This document shows, piece after piece, positions 8,682-62,006 of a DNA stretch of 64,000 nt. The translations under genes and the position numbers were made by a program. Every line of letters begins with the position of its first letter. Positions within the stretch are counted from its first letter, which is position 1. The stretch is from contig NZ_CP132294.1 of NCBI RefSeq assembly GCF_030734285.1, forward strand, positions 2,976,001 through 3,040,000, given 5' to 3'. Under the pieces are notes generated by a model. That model made no database searches and was not told where the DNA came from. It was given only the letters and a program-made list of their open reading frames with translations. Source of the DNA: Natronococcus sp. AD-5 (GTDB lineage Archaea; Halobacteriota; Halobacteria; Halobacteriales; Natrialbaceae).

Positions 8682-9926
8682 ATGAGCAGCACTGCCCGGT
8701 CGCTCACCGAACCGCGGGTCCTCGCCCACGCGAAACGGCGGCTCTTTCCGGACGAGGATCTGGGACCCGCCTACGCGGTCGCCGACACGCAGTTCTCGCA
8801 GCAGGAGTGGCTCCCCGGACGCCCCGTCGATCCCGACGTCCGCGAGCGTCTGGCGCCGTTCAACCGCGTCCGGATCGGCGGCGGCTACCCGGACCTCGCG
8901 GGCGTCCGCACGCTCGAGTCGGAGCTGCTGGCCGTCGAGCGCTTCGGCGAGGAGCCGCCGCTGATCGCCGTCGAGGCGAAGGGGTACGCGAGCGGCGGCG
9001 TCGACACGCACCTCGGGATCGTCCAGGCGTACGACCGCCTCCACGAGGCGAACGCGGCCTATCTCGCCGCGCCCGCGGCGGTCGTCTCGGAGACCGACCG
9101 AACGCTCGCGCGGGAGCTGAACGTCGGCGTCCTCGGCGTCGAACCCGACGGCGCGGTGACGGCGCTCGAGGTGCCGCGAGTCGTCGGCAACCGGACGACG
9201 ACCGAGGCGACTGCGCTCCGCTTCCAGGCGAGCGCGCAGGGCGTCGCAGAGAAGTCCTTCAGGCTGAACCACCCGAAGAACTACCTCGGCTATCCGCTGG
9301 CGCACTACGCCGACGGCGACACCGAGACGCTGCTTTCGGAGTACAAGGTCGTCGGCGCGACGACGGAGGCGCGACGCGGCGCCGCGTTCCTCGGACTGAT
9401 CGACGACGGTCCGCGAGGAGCGGAGCTAACGTCGCTCGGAAAGGAGGTAGTGCGGTTCGCGCTGGCTCGCTGCGGTACCGTCGAGGCCGCCCTCGAGGAG
9501 TTCGAGGAGTGGTACCGATCGCGAAAACGGTTCGTCGACCTGGCGCCGGCGTGGGGGCAGCTCGCCCGCCGGGTCGTGTTCGCGTACCCGGCAACGGAGT
9601 TGCTCGTAACCGAACTGCAACGCCTCCACGAGGACGGAAACCGGGAGCCGTCGCTCGCGGAGTTCGTCGCGTACCTCCACGAGCTGCACCCCTCGTTCGC
9701 CGTGGAGCTGTTCGTCCGCGGCGACGAAGCCGTCCGACGGCGCGTCCTGACCGCGGACGGCGAGCTTCGACGGGCGGCGCTCGAGGACGGGGCCGTCTAC
9801 CACGCGCCGACCGTCTTCCAGCTGAAGGCGATGCTGTACCACGCCGGGATCCTCACCGAGCGCGGACGTGAGCCGCATCGACTCGAGCCGACCGCCGACG
9901 TCTGGGCGCTCCGCGAGGCGGTCTGA
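8682..9926 (+). CDS. Probable PD-(D/E)xK-fold protein with C-terminal helical/wHTH-like region
   Basis: 414 residues; I do not recognise a named family. The N-terminal third reads like a restriction-endonuclease-fold core: GGGYPDLAGV (D71), then PLIAVEAKGY (E98-x-K100), then GIVQAYDRLHEANAAYLAAP with a conserved Gln115, followed by a strand ELNVGVLGV. The rest is helical and acidic, with segments resembling winged-helix modules (LTSLGKEVVRFAL; VFQLKAMLYHAGILTE). The start is ATG 8682, chosen because upstream sequence in this frame is Arg-rich and non-haloarchaeal. It stands alone, with no methyltransferase beside it, so a defence or repair role is inference. Confidence 0.7.
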   Translation: MSSTARSLTEPRVLAHAKRRLFPDEDLGPAYAVADTQFSQQEWLPGRPVDPDVRERLAPFNRVRIGGGYPDLAGVRTLESELLAVERFGEEPPLIAVEAKGYASGGVDTHLGIVQAYDRLHEANAAYLAAPAAVVSETDRTLARELNVGVLGVEPDGAVTALEVPRVVGNRTTTEATALRFQASAQGVAEKSFRLNHPKNYLGYPLAHYADGDTETLLSEYKVVGATTEARRGAAFLGLIDDGPRGAELTSLGKEVVRFALARCGTVEAALEEFEEWYRSRKRFVDLAPAWGQLARRVVFAYPATELLVTELQRLHEDGNREPSLAEFVAYLHELHPSFAVELFVRGDEAVRRRVLTADGELRRAALEDGAVYHAPTVFQLKAMLYHAGILTERGREPHRLEPTADVWALREAV

Positions 9927-50476: not shown

Positions 50477-50548
50477 CCGCCAGCGGTCCGACGACGTCCT
50501 CGGGCCGACGCGCGAGCGCGACGCGGCGGACGACGGGGGCGAGTGACG

Positions 50549-51379
50549 ATGGCGATGCGCGTCACCCTGCTCGGAACCGGCGACACGACCGGCACGCCGA
50601 CGGTCGGCTGCGACTGCGAGACCTGCCGGCTCGCTCGAGAGCGCGACGTCGAACGCACCCGGTTCTCGGTACACGTCGAAAACGAGCGCACCGGCGCGTC
50701 GCTGCTGATCGACTTCAGCCCGGACTTTCGCTACCAGTTCCTGCGCGACGACGTCCCCCTTCCCGACGCCGGCATCGTCACCCACATCCACTTCGACCAC
50801 CTCGACGGGCTCGGGAACGCCTTCCGCGTGTTCGACTCGCTGGACGTCTACGCGGCCGACGAGACCGATCCCGAGACCGGCAAGAGCGTCGCGGAGACGG
50901 TCGCCGACGACTACCACTACCTCAGCACGATCTCGGTCCGGCCGACGACCCCGCTCGAGACGGTCCGCATCTGTGGCCTCGACGTGACGCTCGTCCCGGT
51001 CGACCACCCGCCGCTCGTCTGTTACGGCGTCGCCCTCAAGGATCCCGAGACGGGCGCGAAGCTGTCGATCACGGGCGATACGAGCTACGCCGTTCCCGGG
51101 CGGTCCCGCGAGGTACTGGCCGATCCCGACCTCCTGCTGGCCGACGCCATCGTCCCGGCGCACCTCTGCTCGTCCCATCCGATCGGCGGCCGACACGAGG
51201 GTCCCGACGGCGTCCCGCGCACGTTCGGAACAAAACACATGACTCGCGAGGGAGCGCTCGCGCTGGCCGAGGAACTGGACGCGAACCGAACGCGGATCGT
51301 CCACGTCGCACACTTCTATCCCGCGGACGAGGCGTTCGAGGAACCGCTGGCGATCGACGGCGAGGAGTACGTCATCTGA
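50549..51379 (+). CDS. MBL-fold hydrolase (PhnP-like)
   Basis: 276 residues. VTLLGTGDTTGTPTVGCDCE carries the Cys cluster near the N-terminus seen in PhnP (GCDCETCR), then DFSPDFRYQFL, VTHIHFDHLDGLGN (HxHxDH), VDHPPLVCYG, and TGDTSYAV. PhnP-type enzymes cleave cyclic phosphodiesters. Start ATG 50549; GTG 50543 and ATG 50555 are in frame and close. It follows the nucleotidyltransferase gene by 72 nt. Confidence 0.85.
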   Translation: MAMRVTLLGTGDTTGTPTVGCDCETCRLARERDVERTRFSVHVENERTGASLLIDFSPDFRYQFLRDDVPLPDAGIVTHIHFDHLDGLGNAFRVFDSLDVYAADETDPETGKSVAETVADDYHYLSTISVRPTTPLETVRICGLDVTLVPVDHPPLVCYGVALKDPETGAKLSITGDTSYAVPGRSREVLADPDLLLADAIVPAHLCSSHPIGGRHEGPDGVPRTFGTKHMTREGALALAEELDANRTRIVHVAHFYPADEAFEEPLAIDGEEYVI

Positions 51380-55595: not shown

Positions 55596-56573
55596 TCAGC
55601 CGAACTGATCCAGTCCCGACTGCCGGCGCCGCTTTCCGTCCGGGTCGGCGACCCAGGGCGTCCGGCGGTCGCGCTCGGCGGCGAGGTCGACGTCGGGCGC
55701 GGACGACGTCTCGTACCCCGGGCAAGCGGCGTCGCAGTCGGCGCCGGCGTCGACGACGCGCCCCGCCCACTCGCAGTACGGAAGCGTCGCGCCGCTCGAG
55801 TCGGCGGCCCGACAGGCCGCACAGTCGGGGAACGCGTACGTTCGCCAGCCCTTGCCGTAGGCTCGCTCCGCGATCCGGTGGCGCGCCTGCGCCTTCTCCG
55901 CGGGCGAGACGACGGCGACGTCGGTTCGGCCGGGGTGGGTCTCGAGCGGTTCGATCCCCGGTTCGTCGACCGCCAGCGGCGTCGCCTCCCGAACGACCTC
56001 GATCTCGCGCACCGCGCCGTCGTCGCGGCGGACGCGCCAGATCCCGACCTCGTCGGGAATCCGGTTGCGGTGGGCCCCCGTCACGTAGCTCTCGGTGGCC
56101 AGGACGACCTCGTCGACGAGGCCGAGACTGACGTCCGTCCGTAACTGGGACTCGAGGTCGCCCGGCCGCCCGAGGTCGGGTTTGTTCTCGATCCCGACGA
56201 TGCGGCCGTACCAGTCCGGATAGCGGGCGACCTGCCGGACGTAGTCGCGGCCGTTGCGCCTGTCGCGCTCGAAGAACCCGATCTCGAGGGCGCGTTCGGT
56301 CGCCCGACGCGCTCGCTCCGGGTGACAGTCGAACGCGTCTTTCCAGTACCGCGACCGACCGGTGCCGACCGCGGCGTCGATGGCGGCGTCCGGGATCGAC
56401 TCGGGTGCGATCGCGGTCCGCTCGTCGAACTCGGGCCCGGGCCGGACGCGGACGACGTCGAGGATCCGCCCGCCGGGGTCGGCCACGCTCGCGCCGAGCT
56501 GTCGGGCGACGAGGCCCTCGCGGCGGGATTCGAGGTGGGCACACAGCTCGAGTTCGAACGCGAACTCGCTCAC
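55596..56573 (-). CDS. DUF5787-family protein, probable PD-(D/E)xK nuclease with Cys cluster
   Basis: 325 residues. MSEFAFELELCAHLESRREG is the DUF5787 start. A nuclease-like core can be read: RILDVV (D39), IVGIENKPDLG (E129-x-K131), then LESQLRTDVSLGLVDEVVLA, like the Gln-helix of PD-(D/E)xK enzymes. The C-terminal part has five cysteines in CAACRAADSS, YCEWAG, GADCDAACPG (C251, C254, C267, C280, C284), reminiscent of the Fe-S or zinc cluster in Cas4/AddB-type nucleases. Both readings are mine; the family is annotated as unknown. Convergent with the lipoprotein gene. Confidence 0.8.
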   Translation of the reverse strand: MSEFAFELELCAHLESRREGLVARQLGASVADPGGRILDVVRVRPGPEFDERTAIAPESIPDAAIDAAVGTGRSRYWKDAFDCHPERARRATERALEIGFFERDRRNGRDYVRQVARYPDWYGRIVGIENKPDLGRPGDLESQLRTDVSLGLVDEVVLATESYVTGAHRNRIPDEVGIWRVRRDDGAVREIEVVREATPLAVDEPGIEPLETHPGRTDVAVVSPAEKAQARHRIAERAYGKGWRTYAFPDCAACRAADSSGATLPYCEWAGRVVDAGADCDAACPGYETSSAPDVDLAAERDRRTPWVADPDGKRRRQSGLDQFG

Positions 56574-58379: not shown

Positions 58380-58925
58380 CTATCTGTCGAACAGCCGTTC
58401 GTTTCGGACGGTTCCGCCGATCACGGGCGCGGCGCCGATGATAACGCGGTTCTTGATGGTGTACTGCCCCTCGACCGTGAGGGCGTACGGGAACGCGACG
58501 TACACGACCCCGGGAGGAGGACGAGCGGCAAGAGCGCGCCCGGAAGCTGGAGAAACAGGAGGAAGACGCCGAGTCGGACGAGCGGCCGTAGAGCAGACAC
58601 AGCCCGATGAGCACCTCCCAGACCCCGAGGGCAGGAACGAACAGCTCCGGGGAACCACGTAGACGGTCGCCGCGACGAGGTCCGCGGCCGGGGAGACGTC
58701 GAAGATCTCGAGCGAGCCGAACCAGACGAACACGACGGCGACCGCGACCCGCAACACCGGCGTCCCCACCGCCCCATCCGCGCCGCGATCGTCGCGTCGA
58801 GCGCGTCGAACTGCCGCCGGTATCTCCGGAGGCGTTCCGATAGAGTCGATCCGCCGATGTCGACGGCCTGCGGGGCGCCAGTCGACGTTTCGTCGAGGAG
58901 CGGGGCGCCGCCCGGAATCGTTGCA
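58380..58925 (-). pseudogene. DoxX/YkgB-like four-helix membrane protein, four frameshifts
   Basis: Pieces of one protein appear in changing frames: [13 protein letters not shown], then [41 protein letters not shown], then PELFVPALGVWEVLIGLCLL, then PLVRLGVFLLFLQLPGALLP-LVLLP, then GVVYVAFPYALTVEGQYTIK-NRVIIGAAPVIGGTVRNE. The junctions are near 58772, 58649, 58587 and 58512. Each is repaired by one extra base in a G/C stretch. The joined product has four hydrophobic helices and looks like a DoxX/YkgB-type membrane protein. No upstream ATG in the first frame, so the start is uncertain. Confidence 0.7.
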
Positions 58926-58971
58926 CCGTCGGGGACCGTTCACTCCGGTGATCCGCCCCGAGAACAGTAGG

Positions 58972-58977
58972 TTTATC
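58972..58977 (+). promoter_or_regulatory. Possible TATA box for the aIF2-gamma operon
   Basis: TTTATC lies 43-48 nt before ATG 59020, leaving a short leader of about 15-20 nt. Confidence 0.5.
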
Positions 58978-59019
58978 AGGCGCACGGCGGAATCTCTACC
59001 TAAGATTACTCATCGTCTT

Positions 59020-60249
59020 ATGGAAGGAAATCGACAACCGGAGGTGAACATCGGACTCGTCGGCCACGTCGACCACGGCAAGACGACGCTGGTGCAGGCG
59101 CTCAGCGGCTCGTGGACGGACCAGCACAGCGAGGAGATGAAGCGCGGTATCTCCATCCGACTGGGCTACGCGGACGCGACGTTCCGCCACTGTCCCGGCG
59201 TGGACGAACCCGAATGTTACACCGTCAAGGAGGAGTGTCCGGACGGCTCGGAGAGCGAGCCGCTGCGGACCGTCTCGTTCGTCGACGCCCCGGGTCACGA
59301 GACCCTGATGGCGACGATGCTCTCGGGCGCCTCGCTGATGGACGGCGCGGTGCTGGTCGTCAGCGCCAACGAGCCCGTCCCCCAGCCCCAGACCGAGGAG
59401 CACCTGATGGCGCTCGACATCATCGGCATCGAGAACATCGTCATCGCCCAGAACAAGATCGACCTCGTCGACTCCGAGACCGCTCGAGACAACTACGAGC
59501 AGATCCAGGAGTTCGTCGAGGGGACGGTCGCCGAAGACGCGCCGGTCGTCCCGATCTCCGCGGGCCAGGAGGTCAACATGGACCTGCTGATCCAGGCGGT
59601 CGAAGAGGAGATCCCGACGCCGGAGCGGGATCCCGACACCGATCCCCGAATGCACGTCGCCCGCAGCTTCGACATCAACAAGCCAGGGACGACCCACGAG
59701 AACCTCACCGGCGGCGTCCTCGGCGGCAGCCTCATCCAGGGCGAACTCGAGGTCGACGACGAGATCGAGATCCGCCCCGGCCGCGAGGTCGAGGAGGGGG
59801 GACAGACCGAGTACGTCCCGATCCGGACGACGATCCGATCGCTCCAGGCCGGCGGCAGTAACATCGAGTCGGTCACTCCGGGCGGGCTGCTCGGCGTCGG
59901 TACGGGCCTCGACCCGTCGCTGACGAAAGGTGACGCGCTCGCCGGCCGAATCGCCGGCCCGCCGGGATCGCTCCCGCCGACGTGGGAGCAGTTCACGATG
60001 GACGTCGATCTGCTCGATCGGGTTGTCGGTACCGACGCGGGCGACGTCGAGGAAATCAGCACCGGCGAACCGCTGATGATGACCGTCGGCACGGCGACGA
60101 CCGTCGGCGCGGTCACGAGCGCGCGCAGCGGCGAGTGCGAGGTTCGGCTCAAGCGCCCCGTCTCGGCCGAGCCGGGCGCGAAGATCGCGATCAACCGCCG
60201 GATCGGCGCCCGCTGGCGACTGATCGGACTGGGAACGCTCCGAGAATAG
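59020..60249 (+). CDS. eif2g: Translation initiation factor aIF2 subunit gamma
   Basis: 409 residues. GTPase motifs [19 protein letters not shown] (G1), [13 protein letters not shown] (G3) and [10 protein letters not shown] (G4) are intact. The zinc-loop region [16 protein letters not shown] carries three Cys. Domains II and III follow with SFDINKPGT and the C-terminal barrel. It binds initiator Met-tRNA as part of the aIF2 trimer. Head of the operon with PIN, Rpo7, Spt4 and dephospho-CoA kinase genes. The start ATG 59020 removes a basic upstream extension. Confidence 0.97.
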
Positions 60250-60262
60250 GACGACAGCGAGC

Positions 60263-60649
60263 ATGAGTACCCGGGTCGCTCTCGATACGAGTGCGTTGAT
60301 GATGCCGGTCGAACTCGACGTTCGGCTGTTCGACGAACTCGACCGGCTGGTCGGCGCCTACGAACCGACGACGCCGCAGCCCGTCATCGAGGAGCTCCGG
60401 CGGCTGTCGGAGAAAGGCGGCACCGAAGGCACGGCGGCGAACGTCGGTCACGACCTGGCGACCGAGCGCTGTCTCGTCGTCGACACGGAGGAATCGTACG
60501 CCGACGACGCGCTGGTCGAACTCGCCCGCGAGGGCGTCGTCGACTACGTCGTCACGAACGATCGCCCGCTGCGCGACCGGGTGCTCGAAACGAGCATACC
60601 GGTAATTGCATTACGCGGGAGAAACAAGTTGGCAATCACTCAACCATAG
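60263..60649 (+). CDS. PIN-domain ribonuclease-like protein
   Basis: 128 residues. RVALDTSALMMPVEL supplies the first Asp, VIEELRRLSEKGG the Glu, YADDALVELA further acids, and YVVTNDRPLRDRVL the TND motif of PIN nucleases. It resembles archaeal Fcf1/Utp24-like PIN proteins linked to rRNA maturation. It lies 13 nt after aIF2-gamma and abuts rpo7 (stop 60649, next ATG 60650), a conserved archaeal gene order. Confidence 0.87.
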   Translation: MSTRVALDTSALMMPVELDVRLFDELDRLVGAYEPTTPQPVIEELRRLSEKGGTEGTAANVGHDLATERCLVVDTEESYADDALVELAREGVVDYVVTNDRPLRDRVLETSIPVIALRGRNKLAITQP

Positions 60650-61219
60650 ATGTACAAACGGGTTAGACTAAAAGATACGGTCGAAGTACCGCCGGAAGCA
60701 CTCGGCGACGTCTCGCCGAGGCTCGTCAAGCAACTGCTGCAGGACAAACTCGAGGGACGCATGGACGAGGAGGTCGGCAGCGTCGTCTCCGTCACCGAGG
60801 TCCACGACATCGGCGAGGGGGCGGTCCTCCCCAACCGTCCGGGCGTCTACTACGAGGCCGAGTTCGACGCCGTCACCTTCGATCCCGAGATGCAGGAGGT
60901 CATCGACGGGACGATCGTCGAGGTCGTCGAGTTCGGCGCCTTCGTCGGAATCGGTCCCGTCGACGGCCTGCTTCACGTCTCCCAGATCAGCGACGAGTAC
61001 CTCGCGTTCGACGGGGAGAACCAGCAGCTCGCGTCGAACGAGTCCAACCGAACGCTCGGCGTCGACGACGCCGTCCGGGCGCGCATCGTCACCAAGAGCA
61101 TCGACGAACGCAACCCGCGCGACTCGAAGATCGGCCTGACCGCCAAGCAGCCGGGGCTCGGCAAGCACGGCTGGCTCGAGGAAGAACACGAGAAGCGCGA
61201 AGCCGCAACGGGTGAATAA
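60650..61219 (+). CDS. rpo7: DNA-directed RNA polymerase subunit Rpo7 (RpoE1, E')
   Basis: 189 residues. N-terminal tip domain MYKRVRLKDTVEVPPEALGD to about 80, then an S1/OB domain with IDGTIVEVVEFGAFVGIGPV-DGLLHVSQISDEY and SKIGLTAKQPGLGKHGWLEE. Forms the stalk with Rpo4. Directly follows the PIN gene with no spacer and precedes spt4 by 2 nt. Confidence 0.96.
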   Translation: MYKRVRLKDTVEVPPEALGDVSPRLVKQLLQDKLEGRMDEEVGSVVSVTEVHDIGEGAVLPNRPGVYYEAEFDAVTFDPEMQEVIDGTIVEVVEFGAFVGIGPVDGLLHVSQISDEYLAFDGENQQLASNESNRTLGVDDAVRARIVTKSIDERNPRDSKIGLTAKQPGLGKHGWLEEEHEKREAATGE

Positions 61220-61221
61220 CC

Positions 61222-61419
61222 ATGGCATCCGATCGCCTCGTCTGTCGCGAGTGCCACCGGGTCAACGACCCCAACGCGGACACCTGCGACTCCTGTAACT
61301 CCTCGTCGCTGACCGAGGACTGGGCCGGCTACGTCGTCATCGCCCACCCCGAGGACAGCGAAATCGCCACGGAGATGCAGGTCACCGAGCCGGGTGCATA
61401 CGCGCTGAAGGTCCGGTAG
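61222..61419 (+). CDS. spt4: Transcription elongation factor Spt4 (RpoE2, E'')
   Basis: 65 residues. Zinc ribbon VCRECHRVN ... CDSCNSSSL (two CxxC) then DWAGYVVIAHPEDSEIATEM. The protein pairs with Spt5 to support elongation. Stop is 2 nt before the next gene. Confidence 0.95.
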   Translation: MASDRLVCRECHRVNDPNADTCDSCNSSSLTEDWAGYVVIAHPEDSEIATEMQVTEPGAYALKVR

Positions 61420-61421
61420 AC

Positions 61422-62006
61422 GTGACTCGCGACGACGCTCGAGACGCCGACAGCGGAGACGAGCAGCTTCTGGTTTTGCCCGACGAGCTCCGTCACGAAC
61501 TCAAGGAGCCGATGGGACTGCTCGAAACCGACGCCGAGCGGTTGCTCGAGGCCGTCGAGGGGCCGCTGATCGCCGTCGGCGACGTCGTCACCTACCACTT
61601 CCTGCAGGCGGGTCGGCTGCCGGACGTCGCGCTCGTCGACGAGCGGACCGAGCGCCAGACCGTCGACGAGGAGATCCGCGAGACCGTCGCGAAGCGGGTC
61701 AACGTCGAAGCGACGAACCCGCCCGCGGAACTCACCGCCGACGTCGTCCGCACGCTCAGGGACGCACTCGAGCGGGACGAGCCGACGACGATCCTGGTTG
61801 ACGGCGAGGAGGATCTCGTCGCGCTCCCGGCGATCGTCGTCGCGCCCGACGGCGCGAGCGTCGTCTACGGCCAGCCCGGCGAGGGGATGGTCCACGTGGT
61901 CGTCGGCGACGAGGTGCGCGCGGAGGTCCGGGCGCTGCTCGAGCGCTTCGAGGGCGATCAGGAGCGGTTCTGGACGCTGCTCGAGGGAGCGAACCGAGAC
62001 GAATAA
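61422..62006 (+). CDS. GTP-dependent dephospho-CoA kinase (DUF359 family)
   Basis: 194 residues of PF04019, shown in Thermococcus to be a GTP-dependent dephospho-CoA kinase, the last CoA step in many archaea. Visible: LPDELRHELKEPMGLL, LIAVGDVVTYHFLQAGRLPD, VALVDERTERQ, ILVDGEEDLVALPAIVVAPD, VVYGQPGEGMVHVVVGDE. The start is GTG 61422, 2 nt after spt4. The last gene in the aIF2-gamma operon. Confidence 0.92.
   Translation: MTRDDARDADSGDEQLLVLPDELRHELKEPMGLLETDAERLLEAVEGPLIAVGDVVTYHFLQAGRLPDVALVDERTERQTVDEEIRETVAKRVNVEATNPPAELTADVVRTLRDALERDEPTTILVDGEEDLVALPAIVVAPDGASVVYGQPGEGMVHVVVGDEVRAEVRALLERFEGDQERFWTLLEGANRDE

Follow-up and report, generated by a model that had tools for sequence, protein, structure and literature searches.

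DUF5787 in haloarchaea: a predicted PD-(D/E)xK nuclease family with a putative PCNA-binding paralogue

According to PMC4929162, the partners of archaeal PCNA beyond a shared core are largely unknown, and Pyrococcus NucS binds the clamp through a C-terminal PIP motif. A study in H. volcanii gives the PIP box as QxxLxxFx, predicts from this motif that PolB1, PolD, RFC-B, Fen1 and RNase H2 are PCNA partners, names NreA and PolY elsewhere, and treats RNase HII as a known PCNA client (PMC7776575). According to PMC2737543, the PIP pocket of H. volcanii PCNA is shallower, and this species has PIP boxes that lack the second aromatic residue.

Here we analyzed a DUF5787 gene in a window of 64,000 nucleotides (the whole stretch under study) from Natronococcus sp. 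AD-5. The family has two paralogues, and we propose, with a probability of roughly 0.72, that the paralogue encoded in the window (B) is a haloarchaeal PD-(D/E)xK DNA nuclease recruited by PCNA. This figure combines our estimates for the fold, PCNA binding and catalysis, which are our own and not independent of one another. If the proposal is true, DUF5787-B is a new, near-universal PCNA partner of haloarchaea with a FEN1-type clamp tail, which suggests a DNA maintenance enzyme of salt-loving archaea that has gone unrecognised. Haloarchaea are a genetically tractable group, and the link between PCNA and this putative nuclease is open to direct testing.

Distribution and paralogues of DUF5787

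55596..56573, minus strand: gene for DUF5787 paralogue B (325 aa, start codon GTG), Pfam PF19100 with E 4.1e-103

The original prediction that the open reading frame at 55596-56573 encodes a DUF5787 protein was borne out by the Pfam profile search, in which its 325 codons on the minus strand matched PF19100 over residues 21-288 (345.3 bits against a cut-off of 25); no other Pfam family was found for this protein up to E 10. Searches with the same protein returned no family in NCBIfam or in the anti-phage defence collection PADLOC, and the best E value in PHROGs was 0.25. Viral relatives were not found either: 42 viral stretches fit a pattern, and none of them encodes a relative. DUF5787 is already known in Pfam; as far as our searches go, neither the nuclease assignment nor the clamp tail appears in the literature searched, where we found no paper naming DUF5787 or PF19100.

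DUF5787 is widespread in the order of the window. Of 392 genomes drawn from the phylum, 80 members of this order contained matches over the cut-off, with two matches in 76 and three in 4; this corresponds to 80 of the 81 same-order genomes among those listed, G134 being the only one without. In a separate draw of 40 genomes from the order, the family was detected in 33, including 25 of the 27 that are at least 90% complete, and the seven genomes devoid of it come from three families (f5, f38 and f41). Since FEN1 of f5 and f41 (4 loci) is just 39-41% identical to that of the host genome, these two look like distant branches. For comparison, the same 40 genomes yielded FEN1 in 37, NucS in 22 and Cas4 in 20 (16 over the cut-off). 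Haloferax volcanii, included as a control, carries DUF5787. One apparent member outside the order, in G227, was rejected: the match (E 2.9e-4) is below the cut-off, covers the cysteine stretch only and sits in a frame that we judge from its sequence to be methionyl-tRNA synthetase-like, so that it looks like a chance match.

The host genome (5.17 Mb, 2 contigs) harbors a second DUF5787 copy at C1:76280-77119. The closest named relative of the window protein that we found, 88% identical, comes from Natronococcus pandeyae, and a plasmid of Natronorubrum bangense, 828 kb in size, carries a copy 31.6% identical to the window protein (NZ_CP031306.1:174529-175389). We retained frames with a score of 80 bits or more against either of the two copies in the host genome and removed repeats sharing the same last 200 residues, which left 83 unique sequences of the window type (B) and 58 of the other type (A). 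In the tree, A and B are fully separated by a long branch with a support of 1.0, and the mean identity is 65% within A and 66% within B vs 34% between them. Judged from these sequences, the duplication is old, because nearly all same-order genomes with matches have two copies and the split between A and B is clean.

Conserved residues, cysteine site and predicted fold

56439..56567, minus strand: residues 3-45, helix 1 and strands 1 and 2 of the predicted core, from the AlphaFold2 model and conservation (E7, C11, E15, R24, Q25, R36, D39)
56541..56543, minus strand: C11, conserved cysteine in helix 1 (80/83 B, 58/58 A)
56457..56459, minus strand: D39, predicted metal-binding aspartate in strand 37-45 (83/83 B, 58/58 A)
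56181..56189, minus strand: E129-N130-K131, (D/E)xK motif, strand 122-130 (83/83 B, 58/58 A)
56145..56147, minus strand: Q143, in the helix following the (D/E)xK strand (83/83 B, 58/58 A)
55722..55823, minus strand: cysteine cluster C251-x15-C267-x12-C280-x3-C284, from conservation and a weak structural match to a presumed Fe-S subunit
56223..56411, minus strand: winged helix-turn-helix inserted between core strands 2 and 3, residues 55-117, from VIA-align and the AlphaFold2 model

Among the positions tabulated, the residues invariant in all 83 B and all 58 A sequences are E3, E7, E15, R24, Q25, R36, D39, R52, Y118, W121, E129, N130, K131, P132, Q143, D147, D154, P173, G177, E236, G242, R244, C251, C267, C284 and R301. 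D39, E129, K131 and the five cysteines lie at the positions given by the original prediction, and the candidate active site, D39, E129-x-K131 and Q143 in the Gln-containing helix, is identical in 141/141 sequences even though A and B have a mean identity of only 34%. Poor conservation of E129, K131 or the cysteines, which would speak against the assignment, was looked for, and E129 and K131 are present in every sequence of either paralogue. The five cysteines proposed for a C-terminal cluster fared less uniformly: C251, C267 and C284 are invariant and C280 is nearly so (82/83 B, 58/58 A), but C254 occurs in only 53/83 B and in 0/58 A, all of which carry F instead, and we rejected it as a member of the site on these counts. 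C11, which had not been part of the earlier proposal, is retained in 80/83 B and 58/58 A.

The C-terminal part modelled alone (residues 186-312; pLDDT 84, pTM 0.57) gave a single match of Z >= 2 against 486 PDB chains, 2y8n_B of a glycyl radical enzyme (Z 2.4 over 40 residues, rmsd 2.9). We take this chain to be the small Fe-S subunit of 4-hydroxyphenylacetate decarboxylase, and the match is a hint, no more, that the DUF5787 cysteines may hold an Fe-S cluster. The best rows of the sequence search against the PDB were CDGSH iron-sulfur proteins without significance (E 0.15-0.72), and the cysteine stretch alone gave no match there. The chances appear about even that the cysteines form a structural zinc site instead, for which the four well-conserved C-terminal cysteines are enough and with which the slightly lower conservation of C11 in B and a spacing unlike that of Cas4 are consistent; the presumed Fe-S subunit being the sole structural match of Z >= 2 counts against zinc, though at Z 2.4 over 40 residues. 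Either metal is compatible with a nuclease recruited by PCNA.

The AlphaFold2 model of the window protein, built with 62 aligned B sequences, has a pLDDT of 90.1 and a pTM of 0.86. Its elements (helix 3-16, strands 21-27 and 37-45, an insert with helix 85-97 and strands 101-106 and 109-114, strand 122-130, helix 140-150 and strand 155-160) follow the order helix-strand-strand-[winged helix]-strand-helix-strand, that is, the alpha-beta-beta-beta-alpha-beta core of the PD-(D/E)xK fold with an insertion. D39 lies in strand 2, E129 and K131 where strand 3 ends, and Q143 in the helix that follows.

Apart from the top VIA-align row, 3dnx (Z 11.2 with 140 aligned residues, but rmsd 6.0), the rows with at least 99 aligned residues include the restriction enzyme PaqCI (Z 9.3 and 8.4), SfsA (7.6), VC1899 (7.6), Card1 (7.2), a CRISPR ancillary nuclease (7.1), AF2093 (6.2) and BamHI (5.6), and NucS-type rows are the P. 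abyssi repair endonuclease 2vld (7.1) and EndoMS 5gke (7.0), where Z 7-9 is near the range described by the tool as common among models that lack a clear match and the absence of a family from the list does not exclude it. We assign these PDB entries to the PD-(D/E)xK fold. The rows limited to model residues 55-119 are winged-helix proteins with Z up to 6.8. Plain Foldseek searches against the PDB and viral models returned nothing at E <= 0.001, which speaks against the assignment, and many of the first PDB rows were winged-helix fragments.

The predicted fold and the invariant residues taken together make it very likely, in our estimate, that DUF5787 adopts a PD-(D/E)xK fold, and the possible nuclease of the original prediction has gained support from both. 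Catalysis is also predicted with high confidence. Many members of the PD-(D/E)xK superfamily have lost catalysis, and the large inserted winged helix would suit a dead fold that binds DNA or serves as a scaffold on PCNA, but all candidate catalytic residues are invariant in the 141 sequences of both paralogues, and such invariance would be unusual for a dead enzyme, which makes this reading improbable.

The C-terminal tail and the gene neighbourhood

55602..55622, minus strand: putative PCNA-interacting (PIP) motif Q318-S-G-L321-D-Q-F324, with Q, L and F/W/Y each in 83/83 B and a disordered C-terminus

The window protein ends in QSGLDQFG, and a typical B sequence ends in R-Q-[STAV]-G-L-[DE]-x-[FWY] plus a few residues. 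Residues 316-325 are disordered in the AlphaFold2 model (pLDDT < 50). We detected the generic PCNA motif Q..[LIM]..[FWY] among the final 16 residues of 83/83 B vs 0/58 A, where the corresponding stretch reads GGPGK...RRRRRRP or similar. When the last 40 residues of each B were shuffled in 500 rounds, the motif appeared in 0.17% on average. A stricter form, which requires D, S, G or N as its fifth residue, matches 78/83 B, the remaining five carrying E. As background, 6345 other frames (150 codons or longer, FEN1 loci excluded) from the fetched loci were scanned; 12 carry the generic motif and two the strict one. One of these two is an RNase HII (Pfam E 1.3e-26); the other, roughly 257 residues long and encoded on contig C2, had itself been fetched by that motif. 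The latter (locus L114, G000:C2:166858, frame 745-1521) has no Pfam match and ends in SQPGLDSF; by its sequence it is possibly a further PCNA-binding protein on a minor replicon.

As a positive control, FEN1 in the host genome ends in QTGLDRWT, and similar ends were found in 30/30 FEN1 loci read. A textbook PIP box has a second aromatic residue, which the B tail lacks, as does haloarchaeal FEN1. On this sequence evidence the B tail very likely binds PCNA. A role in DNA repair, raised as a guess by the original prediction, becomes more likely because the putative PCNA-binding tail resembles that of FEN1 and lies at the extreme C-terminus.

The tail of a genuine nuclease could also be a degron or contact a partner other than PCNA. 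Since W307, P311 and G313 near the motif are 99-100% conserved too, conservation extends beyond the length of a PIP box. We consider this reading unlikely, as the tail is nearly identical to haloarchaeal FEN1 tails (QTGLDRWT vs QSGLDRF), occupies the same extreme C-terminal place and is absent from paralogue A.

The surroundings of B were read in 80 loci, where the neighbour counts are lower bounds since some loci end at contig ends. A block of eIF2 gamma, PIN_9 and RpoE genes is located upstream of B on the opposite strand in 65/80 loci, and a DUF359 gene belongs to the block in 62/80; in the window, the conserved genes for eIF2 gamma, the PIN_9 protein, the RpoE subunit and the DUF359 protein span 58921-62006 on the plus strand, next to B. 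A gene of the metallo-beta-lactamase fold (Lactamase_B_2; 50543-51379, plus strand) lies close downstream of B and convergent with it, an arrangement seen in 64/80 loci. Paralogue A adjoins DUF5797, in convergent orientation, in 17/18 loci, the reference locus counted; in L116 this member of another unknown haloarchaeal family lies at 8927-9427 on the plus strand. Near A we also found a Nudix gene and an S10-like gene (16/18 loci each) and a TFS-like gene (11/18). Repair genes were not seen among the conserved neighbours of A and B that were examined. The surroundings do not form repair operons and are consistent with an old housekeeping gene.

Such neighbours raise the thought of a PD-(D/E)xK protein that acts on RNA, in processing or decay near the transcription and translation machinery, with the tail serving another contact: B stands beside the eIF2 gamma-PIN_9-RpoE-DUF359 block in most loci, and A near Nudix, S10-like and TFS-like genes. 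We give this reading little credence, as the tail motif matches those of FEN1 and RNase HII, each of them a client of the DNA sliding clamp, and the block, being on the opposite strand, does not form one operon with B.

Proposed role and comparison with known nucleases

For a PCNA-recruited DNA nuclease, we infer the metal, the DNA cleavage, the clamp contact and the pathway as follows. D39, E129 and K131 would hold the metal ions with Q143 nearby, and the winged helix inserted in the core may help to grip DNA. C251, C267, C280 and C284, perhaps with C11, would bind an Fe-S cluster or zinc, and this site may lock the C-terminal part onto the nuclease. The flexible tail QSGLDQFG would dock in the PCNA pocket used by FEN1, so that the sliding clamp could deliver B to replicating or repaired DNA, where it would cut. 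B may thus act in replication-coupled repair and compete with FEN1, or hand over to it, at the same PCNA pocket. Paralogue A would be the version without a clamp tether and may be a partner of B.

The original prediction had seen an echo of Cas4 and AddB, which holds for the general fold only. Like the Cas4/AddB/Dna2-type Fe-S nucleases, DUF5787 has a predicted PD-(D/E)xK core, with the nuclease flanked on either side by conserved cysteines; unlike them, it has an inserted winged helix. The cysteine spacing also differs, C-x15-C-x12-C-x3-C in DUF5787 vs C-x2-C-x5-C in haloarchaeal Cas4, and Q143 is followed by the invariant D147 in place of the Tyr of the QxxxY motif of Cas4. In a control alignment of nine haloarchaeal Cas4 frames, those left from 13 loci after filtering for C-terminal cysteines, C181, C184, C190, Q115 and Y119 are invariant. 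Among PD-(D/E)xK families, the hhalign comparison covered NucS and Cas4, and the probability was 0.4% against these 9 Cas4 sequences and 0.5% against 22 haloarchaeal NucS sequences (22 aligned of the 25 frames found). Neither the profile comparison nor the cysteine spacing supports kinship to Cas4 or NucS.

The best structural match, 3dnx, belongs, we presume, to the MmcB-like family, and a viral MmcB-like model also appears among the structural rows, but the rmsd of 6.0 sets the two apart. We know of no cysteine site or PIP tail in MmcB-like proteins.

NucS/EndoMS, an archaeal endonuclease for mismatched or branched DNA, shares the predicted PD-(D/E)xK core of DUF5787, 2vld and 5gke being among the structural matches. 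Unlike NucS/EndoMS, DUF5787 is predicted to have no N-terminal domain before the core, as the core helix begins at residue 3, and to carry the inserted winged helix and the cysteine site. The host genome also has its own NucS, ending in ...LEFVSLEPTGG. The full Q..[LIM]..[FWY] end is present in 1/25 NucS-like frames (L158, GQTLIDEW), and partial forms such as TTLDEF, AKLTDF and AKLSDF in four others. Most of the NucS loci (L136-L161) end right after the nuclease domain without a Pyrococcus-type PCNA motif, and partial forms such as AKLTDF mark a second, divergent NucS-like group. The C-terminal clamp tether thus appears largely missing from haloarchaeal NucS and, as read from sequence, present throughout DUF5787-B. 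Because most haloarchaeal NucS read without a PCNA tail, DUF5787 might have taken over the clamp-bound role that NucS has in other archaea. In the fullest form of this idea, A and B would make up a haloarchaeal replication-coupled, redox-gated Fe-S PD-(D/E)xK nuclease complex, with B as the PCNA tether and A as its partner, which we regard as a speculative and rather doubtful extension.

Haloarchaeal FEN1 differs from DUF5787-B in its catalytic fold, and the C-terminal clamp-binding tail alone is common to both, the PIP motif QTGLDRWT of FEN1 resembling QSGLDRF(G) of B.
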